Part shown: piece by piece, positions 32,376 to 62,511 of the stretch | Layout of the letters: each line of letters starts with the position of its first letter | Position numbering within the stretch: the first letter of the stretch is position 1 | NCBI GenBank assembly: GCA_943330705.2 | Contig: CALQIT020000007.1 | Location: 1-64,000 of the forward strand | DNA length: 64,000 bases | Origin: Streptomyces griseus | GTDB taxonomy: Bacteria > Bdellovibrionota > Bdellovibrionia > Bdellovibrionales > Bdellovibrionaceae | Direction: 5' to 3' | Translations under genes and position numbers: made by a program | Notes under the pieces: model-generated | The model's database searches: none | What the model saw: only the letters and a program-made list of their open reading frames with translations | What the model was told of the DNA's origin: nothing

Positions 32376-32864
32376 TTAAGCTTCACTTGTTCGGTTGAGT
32401 TCTTCGTTCAGTTTATCTAAATCAATAATACTTAGGATCGCTTCTTTTGTTTTGTAGACGCCGCTCATAAACTTTCTGATCTGTCCTTGAACTGTGTCAG
32501 GAACGGGTTCGTAGTCGACATCTGGAATTTCGATGACGTCACCAATGGAATCCACCAACAGTGAAAGCAAGGCACCATCAATTTTGCAAATAACCGTCAT
32601 GCGCGTGGTATCAGGCTGAGATTGACCTAAGCCAAAAAGCTCACGCAGCCCAATGGCTGTGGCAATCTGGCCGCGCAGATTAATTAGGCCGCGCACATAG
32701 TTGGGGGCAATGGGGACTTTTGTCATAGGCAATGAGTTTGTGACCTCTTGTACTTTCATTACATCAATTCCATATTTGTATTCACCCAGCGAGAACGTAG
32801 TTAACTGACGAATACTTTTTACCTGAGAAACAGGTTCGCTGCTCAGCTTTGTAGCTTCGCTCAT
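32376..32864 (-). CDS. cheW: Chemotaxis coupling protein CheW
   Basis: 162 residues with the CheW fold signature (TFSLGEYKYGIDVMKVQEVT, YVRGLINLRGQIATAIGLRE, LLVDSIGDVIEIP). It joins receptors to CheA. The ATG overlaps the cheA stop (ATGA), and the receptor gene starts 45 bases downstream. Confidence 0.96.
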   Translation of the reverse strand: MSEATKLSSEPVSQVKSIRQLTTFSLGEYKYGIDVMKVQEVTNSLPMTKVPIAPNYVRGLINLRGQIATAIGLRELFGLGQSQPDTTRMTVICKIDGALLSLLVDSIGDVIEIPDVDYEPVPDTVQGQIRKFMSGVYKTKEAILSIIDLDKLNEELNRTSEA

Positions 32865-35800
32865 GCAACACCTCTTTCTGACATACTGACGATGGTTTGA
32901 ATTAGTTCTTCAGCGTTCATCTTTTCAAGATAGACGTTAAAGCCCGCCTGATAGCCTTCTTCGACAATTCGTTGATTGGACCGCGTGCTTAATGCAATCA
33001 GGGGGACATGGGCCCAGCGGGTACTGCGGCGAACGGCTTTCGCAAATTCGATGCCGTTCATCTGCGGCATTTCGATATCCGAAAGAATGAGATCAAACGA
33101 ATCTGCATCCGATTTTTCAAGAAGCTCGCAGGCCTCTTTCCCATTATTTGCCATGATCACGACATAGCCTGCGCTTTGCAAAGCCTTGGAAACGTGGCGC
33201 CGAAAGAAGGCAGCATCTTCAACATATAAAATGTTTCGCACCGGCCTTGAAGAACGCGCGGCCGGAAGCTTGGCAAGACTCTGTGGCACAATATTCTTGG
33301 ATGCACGCTTGGTCGTGCTGACTTCCAAACCGATCATCGACTGGATAAGTTTGTAGGGGTCAATAACGACCACGATCTCGTCGTCAGTTATTAGATTTCC
33401 GATAACGCCACCCGGTGTCGTTACCGTCGTATCAAGCACAGAAGGGGTTGTCAGCACGTCTAAGATTTCGTTGACCTCAAGACCGAAAAGGGATCCGCCC
33501 TTTTCAATGACCACAACCGAGATAACTTCAGTGGCAGAATTAACAGTGGTATCCAGTCCGAGGGCTTGATTCAATGAGATCAGGGGCAAAGCTAAATTTC
33601 GATAGCGCACAAGGCGGCGGTGACCTGAAACCTCGACGGCAGACTTTTTAAACTCCTCTAGGCGATGGACGTAGCCCAAAAGAATAGCGTGTTTTGCAGC
33701 AGCCCCGACCCTAAGCAAAAGAAAGTCCTGAAGATCTTCGACGCTTTGTTTGCTGATATCTGAGTCATGAATATGGCGGGTTGGTCCACCACCACCGACT
33801 GTCGAGATATGCTCTTTCACAATTCCTGCAACATCCAAAATTAGGGCAATCGCGCCGTCGCCCAAAACTGTTGCGCCAGAATAAACACCAATGGACTTTA
33901 AAAAACGGGCCAAGGGCTTAACTACGATATCAGCGGTGTCTTGAATTTCATCAACGATCAAACCAAAGCAGTATTGATCTGACTTTAGGACTACAATATT
34001 TGCGACATCTGGCTGATCTCCTGTTGCATCCGAAGAATACAAGACTTTACGAATATTGATCAGAGGCAAAATATTTCCACGAAGGCGAAACACAGGATGA
34101 CCTTGAATTCTCTCGATCCGATTCTCAGAGGAGCTCTGATCAACCCGCACGAGCTCGACCAATTTAAGTTGCGGAATTGCAAAAAAGTCATTCTCACAAC
34201 GCACGATCAAGGCTGGTACAATCGCCAATGTCAGTGGTATCTTTAGACGCAAAGTTGTTCCGCGGCCGGGTTCACTTTGTATTTCAACCGAGCCACCAAT
34301 CTTTTCAATATTTGTTCGAACAACGTCCATACCGACTCCGCGGCCTGAAACATTCGTGACCTTGAGCGCAGTTGAAAATCCAGGAGCAAATATTAAGTGG
34401 ACAATCTCTTGATCGGACAAAGCTGATGCTCGCTCGGCAAGCACAATGCCCTTTTCAATGGCTTTTTTTAACAAGCGATCGCGATGTAGTCCTTTACCAT
34501 CATCGGCGATTTCTATAATCACCTGACCACCCTCATGATAGGAGTTGATGCTGATGCTTCCCACTTCAGACTTACCGGCAGCCTTGCGTTCTGCAGGGGA
34601 TTCAATGCCATGGTCACAAGAATTTCGCACAATATGTGTTAAAGGATCTTTGACGGCCTCAAGCAGGGTCTTGTCGAGCTCGGTTTCACTTCCGGAAAGA
34701 CGCAGCTCAATTTTTTTGCCCAGTTCTTTAGATAATTCCCGGGTTAACCGGGTAAACTTTGTCAGCACATTGCCAATGGGCTGCATTCGGGTTTTCATCA
34801 TTTCGCCCTGAATTTCTCCAGTCACGACATTTAGTCTTTGGCTTAGATTCAAAAATTCTAGGTCATCGGTGCGATTCGAATACTGTATAACTTGATTTCG
34901 CACGAGTACCATCTCGCCCATTAGGGTCATCAACTTATCAAGCAGGACCACGGGCACGCGGATCGTGTTCGCAGAATCTTTATCCGTTTCGGCTGGCGCG
35001 TGCGGCACTGCCGTGGATGGCGCCATTGATTGAGCTGGCGATTGAGCTGGATGTTGAGCTGGCGATTGAGCTGGATGTTGAATTGGCGGAGCGGCGGCCA
35101 CGACGACAGGTTCTACTCTTTCAGCTGCTGGCGCTATGGTCACAGGCGTAGCTAGCGAAGAAGAAATTCCGCCAGCACCTGATTCTTCAGCAAGCAAATT
35201 TAGGATGTCGATGGCCCGAACAATTTGATCTGTGAAGTCCTCAGTTGAATTGTTTTGAATTTTCAACATGGATTTTTCAGCTAAGCTCAAGGAGTCATAG
35301 AGACAATCCAACAATGGCTTGGTCAAACCACCATAATGTTGGCGAAGGCCCTCTAAAACGGTTTCGATTGAATGGGTTAAGTCACCAAGCTGCTTAAACT
35401 TAAAGAGATAAGCCCCGCCCTTTAAAGTATGAACGTCCCGGTACAATGAATCGACGGCATGATCGCTTAAACCTTCTTTTTCAATCTTCTCAAGTTCTTG
35501 AAACGATCTTTGTAATATTTCTTGGCCTTCAGTCAGAAATTCAGCAACGCCATCGCCCAAAGACGGCGTCAGCTCGACTGGATCTTTAGCAACCACTGAG
35601 ATCTCGGCCTGAGCTTCGCCCGCGTCCACGGTACTTGAATCCGTCGATAGTCCTAAAAGGACCCGCGCCGAATCAACGCCTTTGAGAAATTCTTCGATTT
35701 GCTCTTTAGATACGACCTGGATTTCACTGGTCGAATTCAATAGGTTTTCTAAGTGGTGCATCAGCTTGCCAAGCTCGACAAGCCCAAGCATTCCACTTGT

Positions 35801-35953
35801 CCCCTTGAGGTTATGGAAGACTCTGAATATCGAATCAAAATTGGATTTAAAATCCCCGCCACTCTCTAGCGCCAAGAGACTGGCTTCCGTTGATTCTAGT
35901 AACTCTCTAGCCTCGGTGCGAAACTCAGCTAGTTCTTCATCATTCAAACTCAT
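32861..35953 (-). CDS. cheA: CheA-type histidine kinase with two Hpt, two CheW-like and one receiver domain
   Basis: 1030 residues, well above the ~650 of ordinary CheA. Order: Hpt1 (His 47 in FHNLKGTSGM), Hpt2 (His 175 in DVHTLKGGAYLF), a Pro/Ala/Gln linker with HPAQSPAQ repeats (~288-312), dimerisation and ATPase domains (about 328-575; NSCDHGIESPAERKAAG, EIADDGKGLH, GRGVGMDVVR), a first CheW domain (about 576-715), a second divergent CheW-like domain (about 735-875), and a C-terminal receiver (Asp 959 in LSDIEMPQMNG). The build is that of ChpA/PixL-like hybrid CheA proteins. ATG 35953 has GAGGG 6 bases upstream and starts the che operon. Confidence 0.95.
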   Translation of the reverse strand: MSLNDEELAEFRTEARELLESTEASLLALESGGDFKSNFDSIFRVFHNLKGTSGMLGLVELGKLMHHLENLLNSTSEIQVVSKEQIEEFLKGVDSARVLLGLSTDSSTVDAGEAQAEISVVAKDPVELTPSLGDGVAEFLTEGQEILQRSFQELEKIEKEGLSDHAVDSLYRDVHTLKGGAYLFKFKQLGDLTHSIETVLEGLRQHYGGLTKPLLDCLYDSLSLAEKSMLKIQNNSTEDFTDQIVRAIDILNLLAEESGAGGISSSLATPVTIAPAAERVEPVVVAAAPPIQHPAQSPAQHPAQSPAQSMAPSTAVPHAPAETDKDSANTIRVPVVLLDKLMTLMGEMVLVRNQVIQYSNRTDDLEFLNLSQRLNVVTGEIQGEMMKTRMQPIGNVLTKFTRLTRELSKELGKKIELRLSGSETELDKTLLEAVKDPLTHIVRNSCDHGIESPAERKAAGKSEVGSISINSYHEGGQVIIEIADDGKGLHRDRLLKKAIEKGIVLAERASALSDQEIVHLIFAPGFSTALKVTNVSGRGVGMDVVRTNIEKIGGSVEIQSEPGRGTTLRLKIPLTLAIVPALIVRCENDFFAIPQLKLVELVRVDQSSSENRIERIQGHPVFRLRGNILPLINIRKVLYSSDATGDQPDVANIVVLKSDQYCFGLIVDEIQDTADIVVKPLARFLKSIGVYSGATVLGDGAIALILDVAGIVKEHISTVGGGGPTRHIHDSDISKQSVEDLQDFLLLRVGAAAKHAILLGYVHRLEEFKKSAVEVSGHRRLVRYRNLALPLISLNQALGLDTTVNSATEVISVVVIEKGGSLFGLEVNEILDVLTTPSVLDTTVTTPGGVIGNLITDDEIVVVIDPYKLIQSMIGLEVSTTKRASKNIVPQSLAKLPAARSSRPVRNILYVEDAAFFRRHVSKALQSAGYVVIMANNGKEACELLEKSDADSFDLILSDIEMPQMNGIEFAKAVRRSTRWAHVPLIALSTRSNQRIVEEGYQAGFNVYLEKMNAEELIQTIVSMSERGVA

Positions 35954-35981
35954 ATTCGACCCTCAGGATTTTGAGTTACCT

Positions 35982-36005
35982 ATCTGATCAAATTTCTTAT
36001 CAGAT
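35982..36005. promoter_or_regulatory. Inverted repeat upstream of cheA
   Basis: ATCTGAT at 35982-35988 and ATCAGAT at 35999-36005 are perfect complements with a 10-base spacer, 29-52 bases before the cheA ATG. This spacing of about 17 bases centre to centre suits a dimeric repressor or activator site. The remaining sequence of the 368-base gap 35954-36321 holds no gene; the large hairpin at 36167-36314 fills its far end. Confidence 0.5.
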
Positions 36006-36166
36006 CAATGTTTATTTAGGGTCGGAGCAAATGTTCAGAAAGTACAGCTGACCAACAAAACATTAACGGAACACTAGACATAAGTTAAAAAATCTAGCCA
36101 AAGGTAGCTAGCTCAATCCCTAAGACTAAAGTCACTATCGAGGCCATAAATTATTCTAGTTTAGAA

Positions 36167-36314
36167 AATCCATAATCCGTGGAGCTTTAGTGTAGATGTT
36201 CTTCGTGAGCGGGCTCGGCCCGGCAGGATGCCGTATCCAAAGGCCGCCTGAGGGCAAGGATGCCCGTCCCGCTGACGAAGAACATCTACACTAAAGCTCT
36301 ACGGATTATGGATT
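36167..36314. repeat. 148-bp element with near-perfect 47-bp inverted arms and two inner hairpins
   Basis: The left arm 36167-36213 and the right arm 36268-36314 are complementary at 45 of 47 positions. The 54-base centre is GC-rich and folds again: CGGCA-GGA-TGCCG at 36221-36233 and GGGCA-AGGA-TGCCC at 36252-36265, with CGGCC (36216-36220) able to pair with GGCCG (36242-36246). It starts 8 bases after the ftsB-like stop and ends ~210 bases before the cheA start. There is no run of T typical of a rho-independent terminator, no open frame and no evident target-site duplication. It could be a structured RNA, an RNase III-processed mRNA end or a MITE/REPIN-like element. Confidence 0.9.
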
Positions 36315-36321
36315 GAGCCCC

Positions 36322-36621
36322 TTATTCGTCGGCAAAGACGAAAACAAGATCATGCTCGTCAACCAGGTCATACAGATCAAGCGCCTGGCGTTCGATATAC
36401 GAAGGATCCTTAGCCATTTTTAGCTGATACTCTAAACCGCTAATTTGCGTACCAAGAGTCATCATTTGACCAAGTATTAATCCGCGGTCGCGGTGGACTT
36501 GAAAAAGTCGAATAAAATTGCCACTAAAAAGTAAACTACAAAACCCAATGACCAAACAGATAGCCAAGACACGAAACGGACGAAATAAAAATTGATGTAG
36601 CGCCTTGAACCAGTTTGTCAC
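36322..36621 (-). CDS. FtsB/DivIC-type septum formation protein
   Basis: 99 residues: one transmembrane helix (about 17-36), a helical periplasmic segment (FIRLFQVHRDRGLILGQMMT...) and the family ending (KDPSYIERQALDLYDLVDEH). FtsB-like proteins act in the divisome with FtsL and FtsQ. It follows eno by ~100 bases in the same direction, as in many Proteobacteria (eno-ftsB). Confidence is limited by the short, fast-evolving family. Confidence 0.82.
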   Translation of the reverse strand: MTNWFKALHQFLFRPFRVLAICLVIGFCSLLFSGNFIRLFQVHRDRGLILGQMMTLGTQISGLEYQLKMAKDPSYIERQALDLYDLVDEHDLVFVFADE

Positions 36622-36720
36622 CCCTTCAGAGTAACGAAAACAGGGATTCCTTGCCTAGTCCGGACCCAACAAATCTTGACCGTTTAATTGGATCTCTAGA
36701 CTAGGCTTCGGGCGGGTTAC

Positions 36721-39110: not shown

Positions 39111-39272
39111 TTAATGCGTCGCATTAATGCTGGTCTAGGAGGCTAGTGTATTCCCATTGCTAGGTCTTGTTGCGGAGAATAAGATACCTAATCTCCGCAT
39201 ATATTGCGGAGATTAGAGCTTGAGTCGGCGGAGAATAACGCCGATAATCTCCGCATAGGATGCGGAGATTAT
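39111..39272. promoter_or_regulatory. Cluster of palindromes upstream of and over the fic start codon
   Basis: Two near-identical hairpins: 39188-39216 (CTAATCTCCGCA, 5-base loop, perfect complement) and 39244-39272 (ATAATCTCCGCA, TAGGA loop, perfect complement), the second covering the first two bases of the fic ATG. Related half-sites TGCGGAGAATAA and GGCGGAGAATAA lie at 39171 and 39227. A further palindrome TTAATGCGTCGCATTAA is at 39111-39127. The layout suggests operators for a repressor, possibly the Fic protein itself through its C-terminal DNA-binding-like domain. Confidence 0.7.
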
Positions 39273-40407
39273 GGTGCCCTCAAAAAAATATATTCATGAG
39301 CTAAGGAACTGGCCTCAATTCACTTGGGATCAAGCTCAGTTAACTGAGAAGTTAGCCTCGGTTCGCTATCTTCAGGGGCGACTGATTGGGCGCATGGAGA
39401 GCCTAGGGTTCGCATTGCAAGAGGAGGCCGTACTTCAAGCTTTGACCGAAGAAGTTGTTAAAACGAGTGAGATTGAAGGCGAGACCTTAAACCGAGAGCA
39501 GGTCCGATCTTCTGTTGCAAGAAAACTCGGCTTAGATGTGGCGGGCCTAGTGCCCGTGCCACGAGATGTCGATGGCATCGTTGAGTTAATGATTGATGCA
39601 ACTCAGAACTTTAGAAAGCCGCTTACACAGGAAAGGCTTTTCGGTTGGCATGCAGCCCTTTTTCCCAATGGACGAAGCGGAATGACCAAAATAAGAGTGG
39701 CGGCATGGCGTGATGATAGTCATGGACCGATGCAAGTCGTATCAGGGCCGATAGGTAAAGAGAACGTTCATTTTGAGGCCCCTGTTGCGAAGAGGCTAAA
39801 CTCAGAAATGAAGTCTTTTTTAAAGTGGTTCAACGCCAAAGAGTCTGAATATGATCTTGTCGTGAAGGCCGCCGTGTCACATTTTTATTTTGTGACAATT
39901 CATCCTTTTGAAGATGGAAATGGGCGTGTTGCGCGAGCCATTGCCGATATGATGTTGACCGCTTCTGAAAATACCCCTCAACGATTTTACAGCTTGTCTT
40001 CTCAGATCAGCTCTGAGCGTAAAAGTTATTATGAAATTTTAGAGCGTACACAAAAAGGAAATCTCGATATTACCGAATGGCTTTCGTGGTTTTTAGATTG
40101 TCTGGGCCGGGCAATTCAAGGCTCGGAAAAAAATTTGGCTGTCGTCTTGGCCAAAGCTTTATTCTGGAAAAAACATGCGGGAAAAAAATTTAACGATCGA
40201 CAGAAAAAAATCATCAATCGAATGCTCGACGGCTTTGAAGGTAAACTGACCTCTTCCAAGTGGGCGAAGATCGGTAAGTGCTCTCAAGATACGGCTTCGC
40301 GTGATATCGAAGATTTAATTCAACGAAAAATTCTGCGGAAAAATCCAGAAGGCGGTCGCAGTACCAGCTATTCGCTCTGGATTAAATTAGAAACCGTAAA
40401 GGACTGA
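39271..40407 (+). CDS. Fic-family protein (AMP transferase type) with N-terminal autoinhibitory motif
   Basis: 378 residues. The Fic core is unmistakable: HPFEDGNGRVAR (catalytic His, metal and phosphate ligands) at about 211-222. An N-terminal domain (about 1-110) of the type usually paired with Fic carries the class II inhibitory motif TSEIEGE at about 69-75. The C-terminal ~80 residues look like a winged helix (SKWAKIGKCSQDTASRDIED...GRSTSYSLW). Fic proteins transfer AMP or related groups to target proteins and are held inactive by the TxxxEG glutamate. It is on the plus strand amid minus-strand genes, with palindromes over its start, suggesting an acquired, self-regulated cassette. Confidence 0.93.
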   Translation: MVPSKKYIHELRNWPQFTWDQAQLTEKLASVRYLQGRLIGRMESLGFALQEEAVLQALTEEVVKTSEIEGETLNREQVRSSVARKLGLDVAGLVPVPRDVDGIVELMIDATQNFRKPLTQERLFGWHAALFPNGRSGMTKIRVAAWRDDSHGPMQVVSGPIGKENVHFEAPVAKRLNSEMKSFLKWFNAKESEYDLVVKAAVSHFYFVTIHPFEDGNGRVARAIADMMLTASENTPQRFYSLSSQISSERKSYYEILERTQKGNLDITEWLSWFLDCLGRAIQGSEKNLAVVLAKALFWKKHAGKKFNDRQKKIINRMLDGFEGKLTSSKWAKIGKCSQDTASRDIEDLIQRKILRKNPEGGRSTSYSLWIKLETVKD

Positions 40408-62292: not shown

Positions 62293-62421
62293 TATCCCAA
62301 GCGCATGATTACGATCATGGCTGCTCGCTTAGCAGCGGCTTAGTTCTAAAAAGAGCCCGCCTGAGCTAGTTAGTGGTGACTCCTGCCAGGCTCTTCAAGG
62401 GCTCAAATTTTTGCAAATTTA

Positions 62422-62451
62422 TGCCACAAAAAGTTAATATATTTTGTGGCA
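62422..62451. promoter_or_regulatory. AbiE operator 1 (inverted repeat)
   Basis: TGCCACAAAA, ten bases of AT-rich spacer, TTTTGTGGCA: perfect 10-bp arms. Same half-sites as at 62466-62495, 44 bases apart. The stretch 62293-62421 before it holds no gene, only a small GCTGCT/AGCAGC hairpin. Confidence 0.75.
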
Positions 62452-62465
62452 AATTATATGGACAT

Positions 62466-62495
62466 TGCCACAAAATATTGATATATTTTGTGGCA
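62466..62495. promoter_or_regulatory. AbiE operator 2 (inverted repeat)
   Basis: TGCCACAAAA at 62466-62475 and TTTTGTGGCA at 62486-62495, 17 bases before the abiEi start at 62512. AbiEi antitoxins studied in other bacteria bind paired inverted repeats in their own promoter, which fits. Confidence 0.75.
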
Positions 62496-62511
62496 TGGAG
62501 AGCGCTTAATT

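Follow-up and report, generated by a model that had tools for sequence, protein, structure and literature searches.

A giant hairpin between cheA and ftsB is one copy of a phylum-wide family of giant hairpins in Bdellovibrionota

The presence of a very long hairpin between a cheA-type and an ftsB-like gene raises the question which kind of genetic element is found at this locus and which of its two strands matters. The hairpin lies in the window, i.e. the whole 64,000-nt stretch of DNA analyzed here, and its parts and neighbors are given in Table 1. Its arms of 47 nt each are 96% complementary at a spacing of 54 nt, and it is by far the top inverted repeat of the window; read on the + strand, the arms mismatch twice, at a G.T and at a G.G. 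The RNA folding energy of positions 36150-36330 is -106.8 kcal/mol compared to -51.1 +/- 4.15 kcal/mol for shuffled sequences (z = -13.4). Hence, the 148-bp hairpin described in a first-pass annotation of this DNA is real, its arms are complementary beyond chance as was claimed, and the two inner hairpins of its head are present. The neighboring genes, both on the - strand, are also those named there, with the restriction that the DivIC match of the FtsB-like protein in Pfam (25.5 bits) is below the curated cut-off of 28.9. Likewise, the stated absence of a T run behind the hairpin was found to be correct for the window copy, and no transposase or target duplication was found.

Table 1. Position of the giant hairpin, its parts and its surroundings in the window
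Feature	Position	Strand	Characteristics
Whole giant hairpin element	36167..36314	+	148 bp; own-genome head subfamily A; + is the R strand with the fold signature
5' arm of the long stem	36167..36213	+	Inverted-repeat search; double-sided changes in 33 of 46 long-stem pairs, 9 copies
Conserved branched head, 54 nt	36214..36267	+	Invariant or near-invariant among own-genome copies
Head hairpin 1	36216..36246	+	Outer CGGCC/GGCCG around CGGC-AGGAT-GCCG (inner 36221-36233)
Head hairpin 2	36252..36265	+	GGGC-AAGGAT-GCCC
3' arm of the long stem	36268..36314	+	End 7 nt short of the ftsB-like stop codon
DivIC/FtsB-like gene, 99 aa	36322..36621	-	3' end abuts the element; Pfam DivIC E 1.1e-5
CheA-type hybrid kinase gene	32861..35953	-	Other neighbor of the window element
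213-nt gap on the R-5' side	35954..36166	+	Required place for any + strand promoter; none predicted

The hairpin does not stand alone. A blastn search with the window element revealed about 14 additional places in its own draft genome, and about 20 own-genome copies were counted with two covariance models, R1 built from nine full own-genome copies and R2 from relatives, when truncated copies and those cut by contig ends are included. The models R1 and R2 place the window element at 36162-36317 on the + strand with 156.6 and 138.1 bits, respectively. In the following, the strand reading GCAGGATGC is called the R strand and the opposite one the F strand; in the window the R strand is the + strand. 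The copies of head subfamily A, to which the window copy belongs, have near-identical heads and strongly different yet complementary arms. A second head subfamily of the same genome is characterized by CCGCCCCCGCAGGATGCGG or CCGCCCCCGCCACGATGGCGG and by ...GGGCGG...GGCC..., and 102 of 103 elements display a [GC]GA sequence in at least one head loop. A literature search of partial coverage found no description of such a family. The hairpin is one copy of a previously undescribed, phylum-wide family of giant hairpins. The first-pass annotation had been prepared to give up its reading if a second copy, conservation in close relatives and a transcript were all missing; further copies and conservation exist, and the repeat family was not visible to it. 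As a side observation, assembly breaks of the own genome fall inside element copies (contigs C96/C63, C53 and C61), and the end of C96 and the start of C63 resemble two halves of one copy.

Regarding the distribution, the family was detected with R1 in 20 of 99 other relatives searched. With R2, 23 of the 24 genomes of the genus taken as Bdellovibrio were positive (1-26 matches per genome), and matches occur in 53 of 291 genomes across the phylum; a genome of another genus (G011) has at least 42 copies. Most of the heads inspected at 20 distant loci follow the same plan of a long perfect stem with hairpins like GCAGGATGC, GCACGATGC, CCATGGATGG and GGGCAGGATGCCC. Viral contigs, phages and plasmids gave no match to the element, and pattern matches in unrelated phyla were dismissed as chance, because the covariance model gives no head or stem there. 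An Rfam search with the element returned no family at gathering score; weaker matches were microRNA precursors and were discarded, because they matched through the long stem alone. Among related genera, the copy numbers range from 0 to 42 or more and the head subfamilies are lineage-specific. Such a pattern would suit a non-autonomous mobile palindrome, either MITE-like or a transposon of single-stranded DNA hairpins, which has no RNA function. According to this explanation, the head would be the recognition site for a recombinase on the folded single-stranded R strand, and template switching would keep the arms palindromic. We regard it as rather unlikely, since no transposase is linked to the element. 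Apart from this, in G011 (locus L231 on contig C168, beside N runs) head and 3' arm occur in tandem without the 5' arm, which looks like a local tandem duplication of the element unit.

The comparison of copies provides information on how the arms evolve. A covariation analysis revealed double-sided changes in 33 of 59 pairs among the nine own-genome copies, a number that none of 500 shuffles reached, while slid structures gave 9-14; the 13 head-helix pairs are invariant in these copies and uninformative on covariation. The covariation supporting the fold lies far above both controls. Furthermore, flanking-gene matching found for 14 of 19 loci in one species (G080) a counterpart among 17 fetched from another (G081), and several are also found in G076 and G070. 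Comparison of these orthologous loci in sister species shows mostly good conservation of the head, whereas arm similarity spans everything from identity to large differences, with pairing maintained throughout; the four-fold sites of G080 and G081 are 0.69-0.88 identical. The head orientation was kept at every orthologous locus compared, and a search of these loci for head flips, as spacer inversion during template switching should produce, found none. The finding that orthologous loci keep the element while its arms are replaced with compensation supports a structured non-coding RNA, and so does the constant head orientation. For a mobile palindrome, by contrast, the retention of element and orientation at the G080 loci with G081 counterparts is unfavorable, because it suggests constraint.

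Among similar arms, two-sided and one-sided changes amount to 71 and 30, and in G011 with fixed anchors to 155 and 52, in both cases counted on non-independent copy pairs. Independent mutation alone is expected to give more one-sided states; hence, template switching between the arms, a mechanism described in PMC8794818 and PMC8604942, probably contributes. The same excess would also be in line with a mobile palindrome, as if one arm serves as template for the other. A similar ambiguity applies to the loss of copies. At locus L101, a full element in G080 corresponds to different remnants in G081 and G076. The initial impression of an insertion in G080, based on an apparent empty site in the two relatives, was abandoned, because the remnants end at different positions and retain the basal part of the arms, which makes loss by deletion more likely. 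As judged from this locus, element loss proceeds by internal deletion, a behavior that could likewise be claimed for mobile palindromes. However, neither a clear target duplication nor a clean empty site was found; at the single locus compared, two different internal deletions are seen in place of such a site.

It is important to decide which of the two strands folds. Among the arm errors read on the R strand, 57 G.T were counted versus 11 A.C, and after deduplication (87 elements) the ratio is 38:11 (p = 1.4e-4). Because strand-symmetric mutation would make both numbers equal, the R strand is regarded as the folding strand. Counting from a fixed anchor in the head gave 21 versus 5 for the arms of G011; for the own genome alone the numbers are 9 versus 4, which is not significant, and for 21 distant loci 5 versus 4. 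Moreover, mismatches of the type A.G/G.A are found 96 times on the R strand versus 8 of the type C.T/T.C, and the unpaired head bases of this strand are two-thirds purine (A 36%, G 31%, C 17%, T 15%). A folding R strand fits RNA, and single-stranded DNA would fit too. In the window, the R strand runs opposite to ftsB and cheA, which makes a function as terminator or mRNA end of ftsB less likely.

In this regard the genomic position of the family has to be considered. The elements are intergenic, the nearest gene on the R-3' side is usually convergent with its stop codon often 2-30 nt away, and the gap on the R-5' side is usually at least 100 nt (both ORF-based hand counts). Where two elements are separated by less than about 1 kb, their arrangement is nearly always (-,+) with the R-5' sides facing each other; one tandem exception occurs in G295. 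This position could indicate an element of gene 3' ends, in which the F strand forms a 3' UTR hairpin for the convergent gene (ftsB in the window) that terminates transcription, blocks exonucleases or is cleaved by RNase III. Of 28 close 3'-end neighbors (<60 nt), about 23 read this way, often 2-30 nt past the stop codon (hand count), and the own-genome copies of subfamily A are T-rich directly after the hairpin on the F strand. This was our initial view, which was downgraded with the result on strand asymmetry, because the signatures favor the R strand. In addition, T runs of at least five within 25 nt of the hairpin are present on the F strand in only 13 of 87 elements (R strand, 8 of 87), some copies follow a separate intrinsic terminator (L101, L113), and the paired elements between rplL and rpoB sit within co-directional essential genes. 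Given this balance, we consider the explanation by gene 3' ends improbable, and the intrinsic terminator found no support as a general role, because T tracts are restricted to few elements and missing at the window copy. The RNase III-processed end of the ftsB mRNA put forward in the annotation is thereby weakened by the opposite strand, although copies do lie at gene 3' ends.

Several sites are conserved. Besides the element pair between rplL and rpoB, an element lies a short distance ahead of the SRP RNA gene and another one beside a c-di-GMP riboswitch RNA. At locus L103, the SRP RNA gene (RF00169, 1701-1799) lies about 45 nt downstream of an element, an arrangement common to at least four Bdellovibrio species. 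Locus L113 harbors a c-di-GMP-I-GGC riboswitch at 1309-1382 (54 bits, slightly below gathering score); downstream of it lie an intrinsic terminator and, behind this, an element. A genome taken as B. bacteriovorus HD100 also carries copies, among them those at 423,470-423,604 (+), 1,191,818-1,191,979 (-), 1,515,845-1,516,002 (-), 2,307,492-2,307,653 (+) and 3,086,118-3,086,256 (-). Its c-di-GMP riboswitch falls within the published merRNA coordinates on the matching strand, in line with this identity and with Bdellovibrio as the genus; the riboswitch at L113 is likely an orthologue of this merRNA. The copies of HD100 do not coincide with any of the eight attack-phase sRNAs of PMC3627812. The unit repeated in G011 is asymmetric. 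Conservation extends R-5' of the hairpin over tens of nt (about 150 nt in some copies), and on the R-3' side there is a short tail with a T run about 15 nt past the hairpin on the R strand. This asymmetry lends support to an RNA read from the R strand. Conversely, sigma-70-like promoters were not predicted over 35900-36700, and this result weakens the view of a non-coding RNA, as do the lack of overlap with the attack-phase sRNAs, the non-significant G.T excess of the own genome and the clustering of copies at gene 3' ends with opposite reading direction; the strand signature itself could also be given by single-stranded DNA. The sole terminator-like site in the same region, at 36111-36094 on the - strand, belongs to another, small hairpin.

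The head loops offer one more explanation, namely a decoy RNA for CsrA/RsmA, in which the two GGA loops of the head bind a CsrA dimer. The window loops CAGGATG and CAAGGATG are close to the CsrA consensus, and CsrA was found in all genomes tested. However, CsrA is present in 40 of 40 genomes and the element in 17 of these 40, while GGA occurs in both loops of only 54 of 103 elements and CGA is common. Hence, the decoy was rejected as a class-wide role, because GGA is not invariant and the presence of CsrA is not matched by that of the element, and it appears very improbable for the window copy.

Collectively, the many copies, the covariation, the strand-specific fold signature and the missing Rfam family support the structured RNA that the annotation had named among its options. 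The giant hairpin is most likely a non-coding RNA, as far as can be concluded from DNA sequences, and we give an even chance to the more specific reading that the window element belongs to a dispersed family of genes for structured non-coding RNAs in Bdellovibrionota. In such a gene, the R strand would be transcribed from a promoter on the 5' side toward the 3' end of the convergent gene, in the window from between cheA and ftsB toward ftsB. The long helix, whose sequence varies freely while remaining complementary, bears the conserved branched head presenting the [GC]GA loops. A protein or RNA might dock at the head, and the stalk, being long and double-stranded, might provide stability and an entry point for RNase III. 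Selection on the fold would maintain the complementarity of the arms, probably aided by template switching from one arm to the other when the DNA is replicated. The units may spread within lineages and may be lost through internal hairpin deletions.

It is worthwhile to compare the family with known systems. ERIC, NEMIS/Correia and YPAL are intergenic hairpins of 100-170 bp that fold as RNA, some of them being processed by RNase III, and their arm sequences are common to the copies of a family. The giant hairpins share with them the long intergenic hairpin that would fold as RNA and differ in that the head is constant and the arms are replaced. The element is most like the long intergenic palindromes that other bacteria carry as repeats, with the conservation reversed. 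The copies share with REP, BIME and REPIN sequences a palindromic form, dispersal over intergenic regions, a frequent location close to gene 3' ends and an occasional arrangement in inverted pairs. However, REPs are described as 20-40 bp long with a GTAG/CGTC tag (PMC3733652), while the element, at about 150 bp, combines a branched head that is conserved with arms that are not, and inspection of the ends of the window element revealed no such tag. The RAYT transposase domain PF01797 (Y1_Tnp) gave no match in the own genome (94% complete), which also speaks against a mobile palindrome; it is present in 49 of 60 relatives regardless of element presence. Thus, a REPIN/RAYT system was rejected on grounds of size, tag and transposase. 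Terminal inverted repeats shared between copies, as in MITEs, were not found, since the arms differ strongly while the head is conserved. The MITE/REPIN-like element of the annotation hence holds with regard to dispersal and lineage-specific amplification, and finds no support with regard to Y1 transposase, size and tag; no target duplication was seen. The interpretation of the annotation is partly supported in total, with the structured RNA standing best. Like the RNA hairpins created and maintained by replication template switching that are described in PMC8794818, the arms stay perfectly paired via coordinated changes; unlike the hairpins described there, the present ones belong to a large family in bacteria whose asymmetric head is conserved and constant in orientation. 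Covariation and a strand-specific fold are features shared with the structured non-coding RNAs of Rfam.

The family is large and phylum-wide, lacks an Rfam match, and its arms are almost completely replaced at orthologous loci of sister species with conserved heads. Therewith, the long-standing question whether pairing in long RNA/DNA stems is kept by independent compensatory mutation or by template switching becomes directly testable by genome comparison. If transcribed, the elements would represent a new abundant class of structured RNA in predatory bacteria, located beside rpoB, the SRP RNA gene, ftsB and the merRNA-type c-di-GMP riboswitch RNA. Tentatively, and with slightly less than even confidence, we propose a phylum-wide class of giant-hairpin non-coding RNAs in predators and their relatives with tens of copies per genome, whose conserved branched head sits on a stalk that is continually rewritten under enforced complementarity. 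If true, this class would be a natural system for the joint action of template switching and RNA-level selection in compensatory evolution.

Finally, other symmetrical sequences were observed in the window. The dyad ATCTGATCAAATTTCTTATCAGAT at 35982-36005 is situated directly upstream of the cheA start and might be an operator. Two alike palindromes, TAATCTCCGCATATATTGCGGAGATTA and TAATCTCCGCATAGGATGCGGAGATTA, are found at 39189-39271 directly upstream of a Fic-like gene (39271-40407, + strand), and an inverted repeat of 32 nt (TTGCCACAAAATAT...) with a loop of 12 nt is located at 62421-62496.
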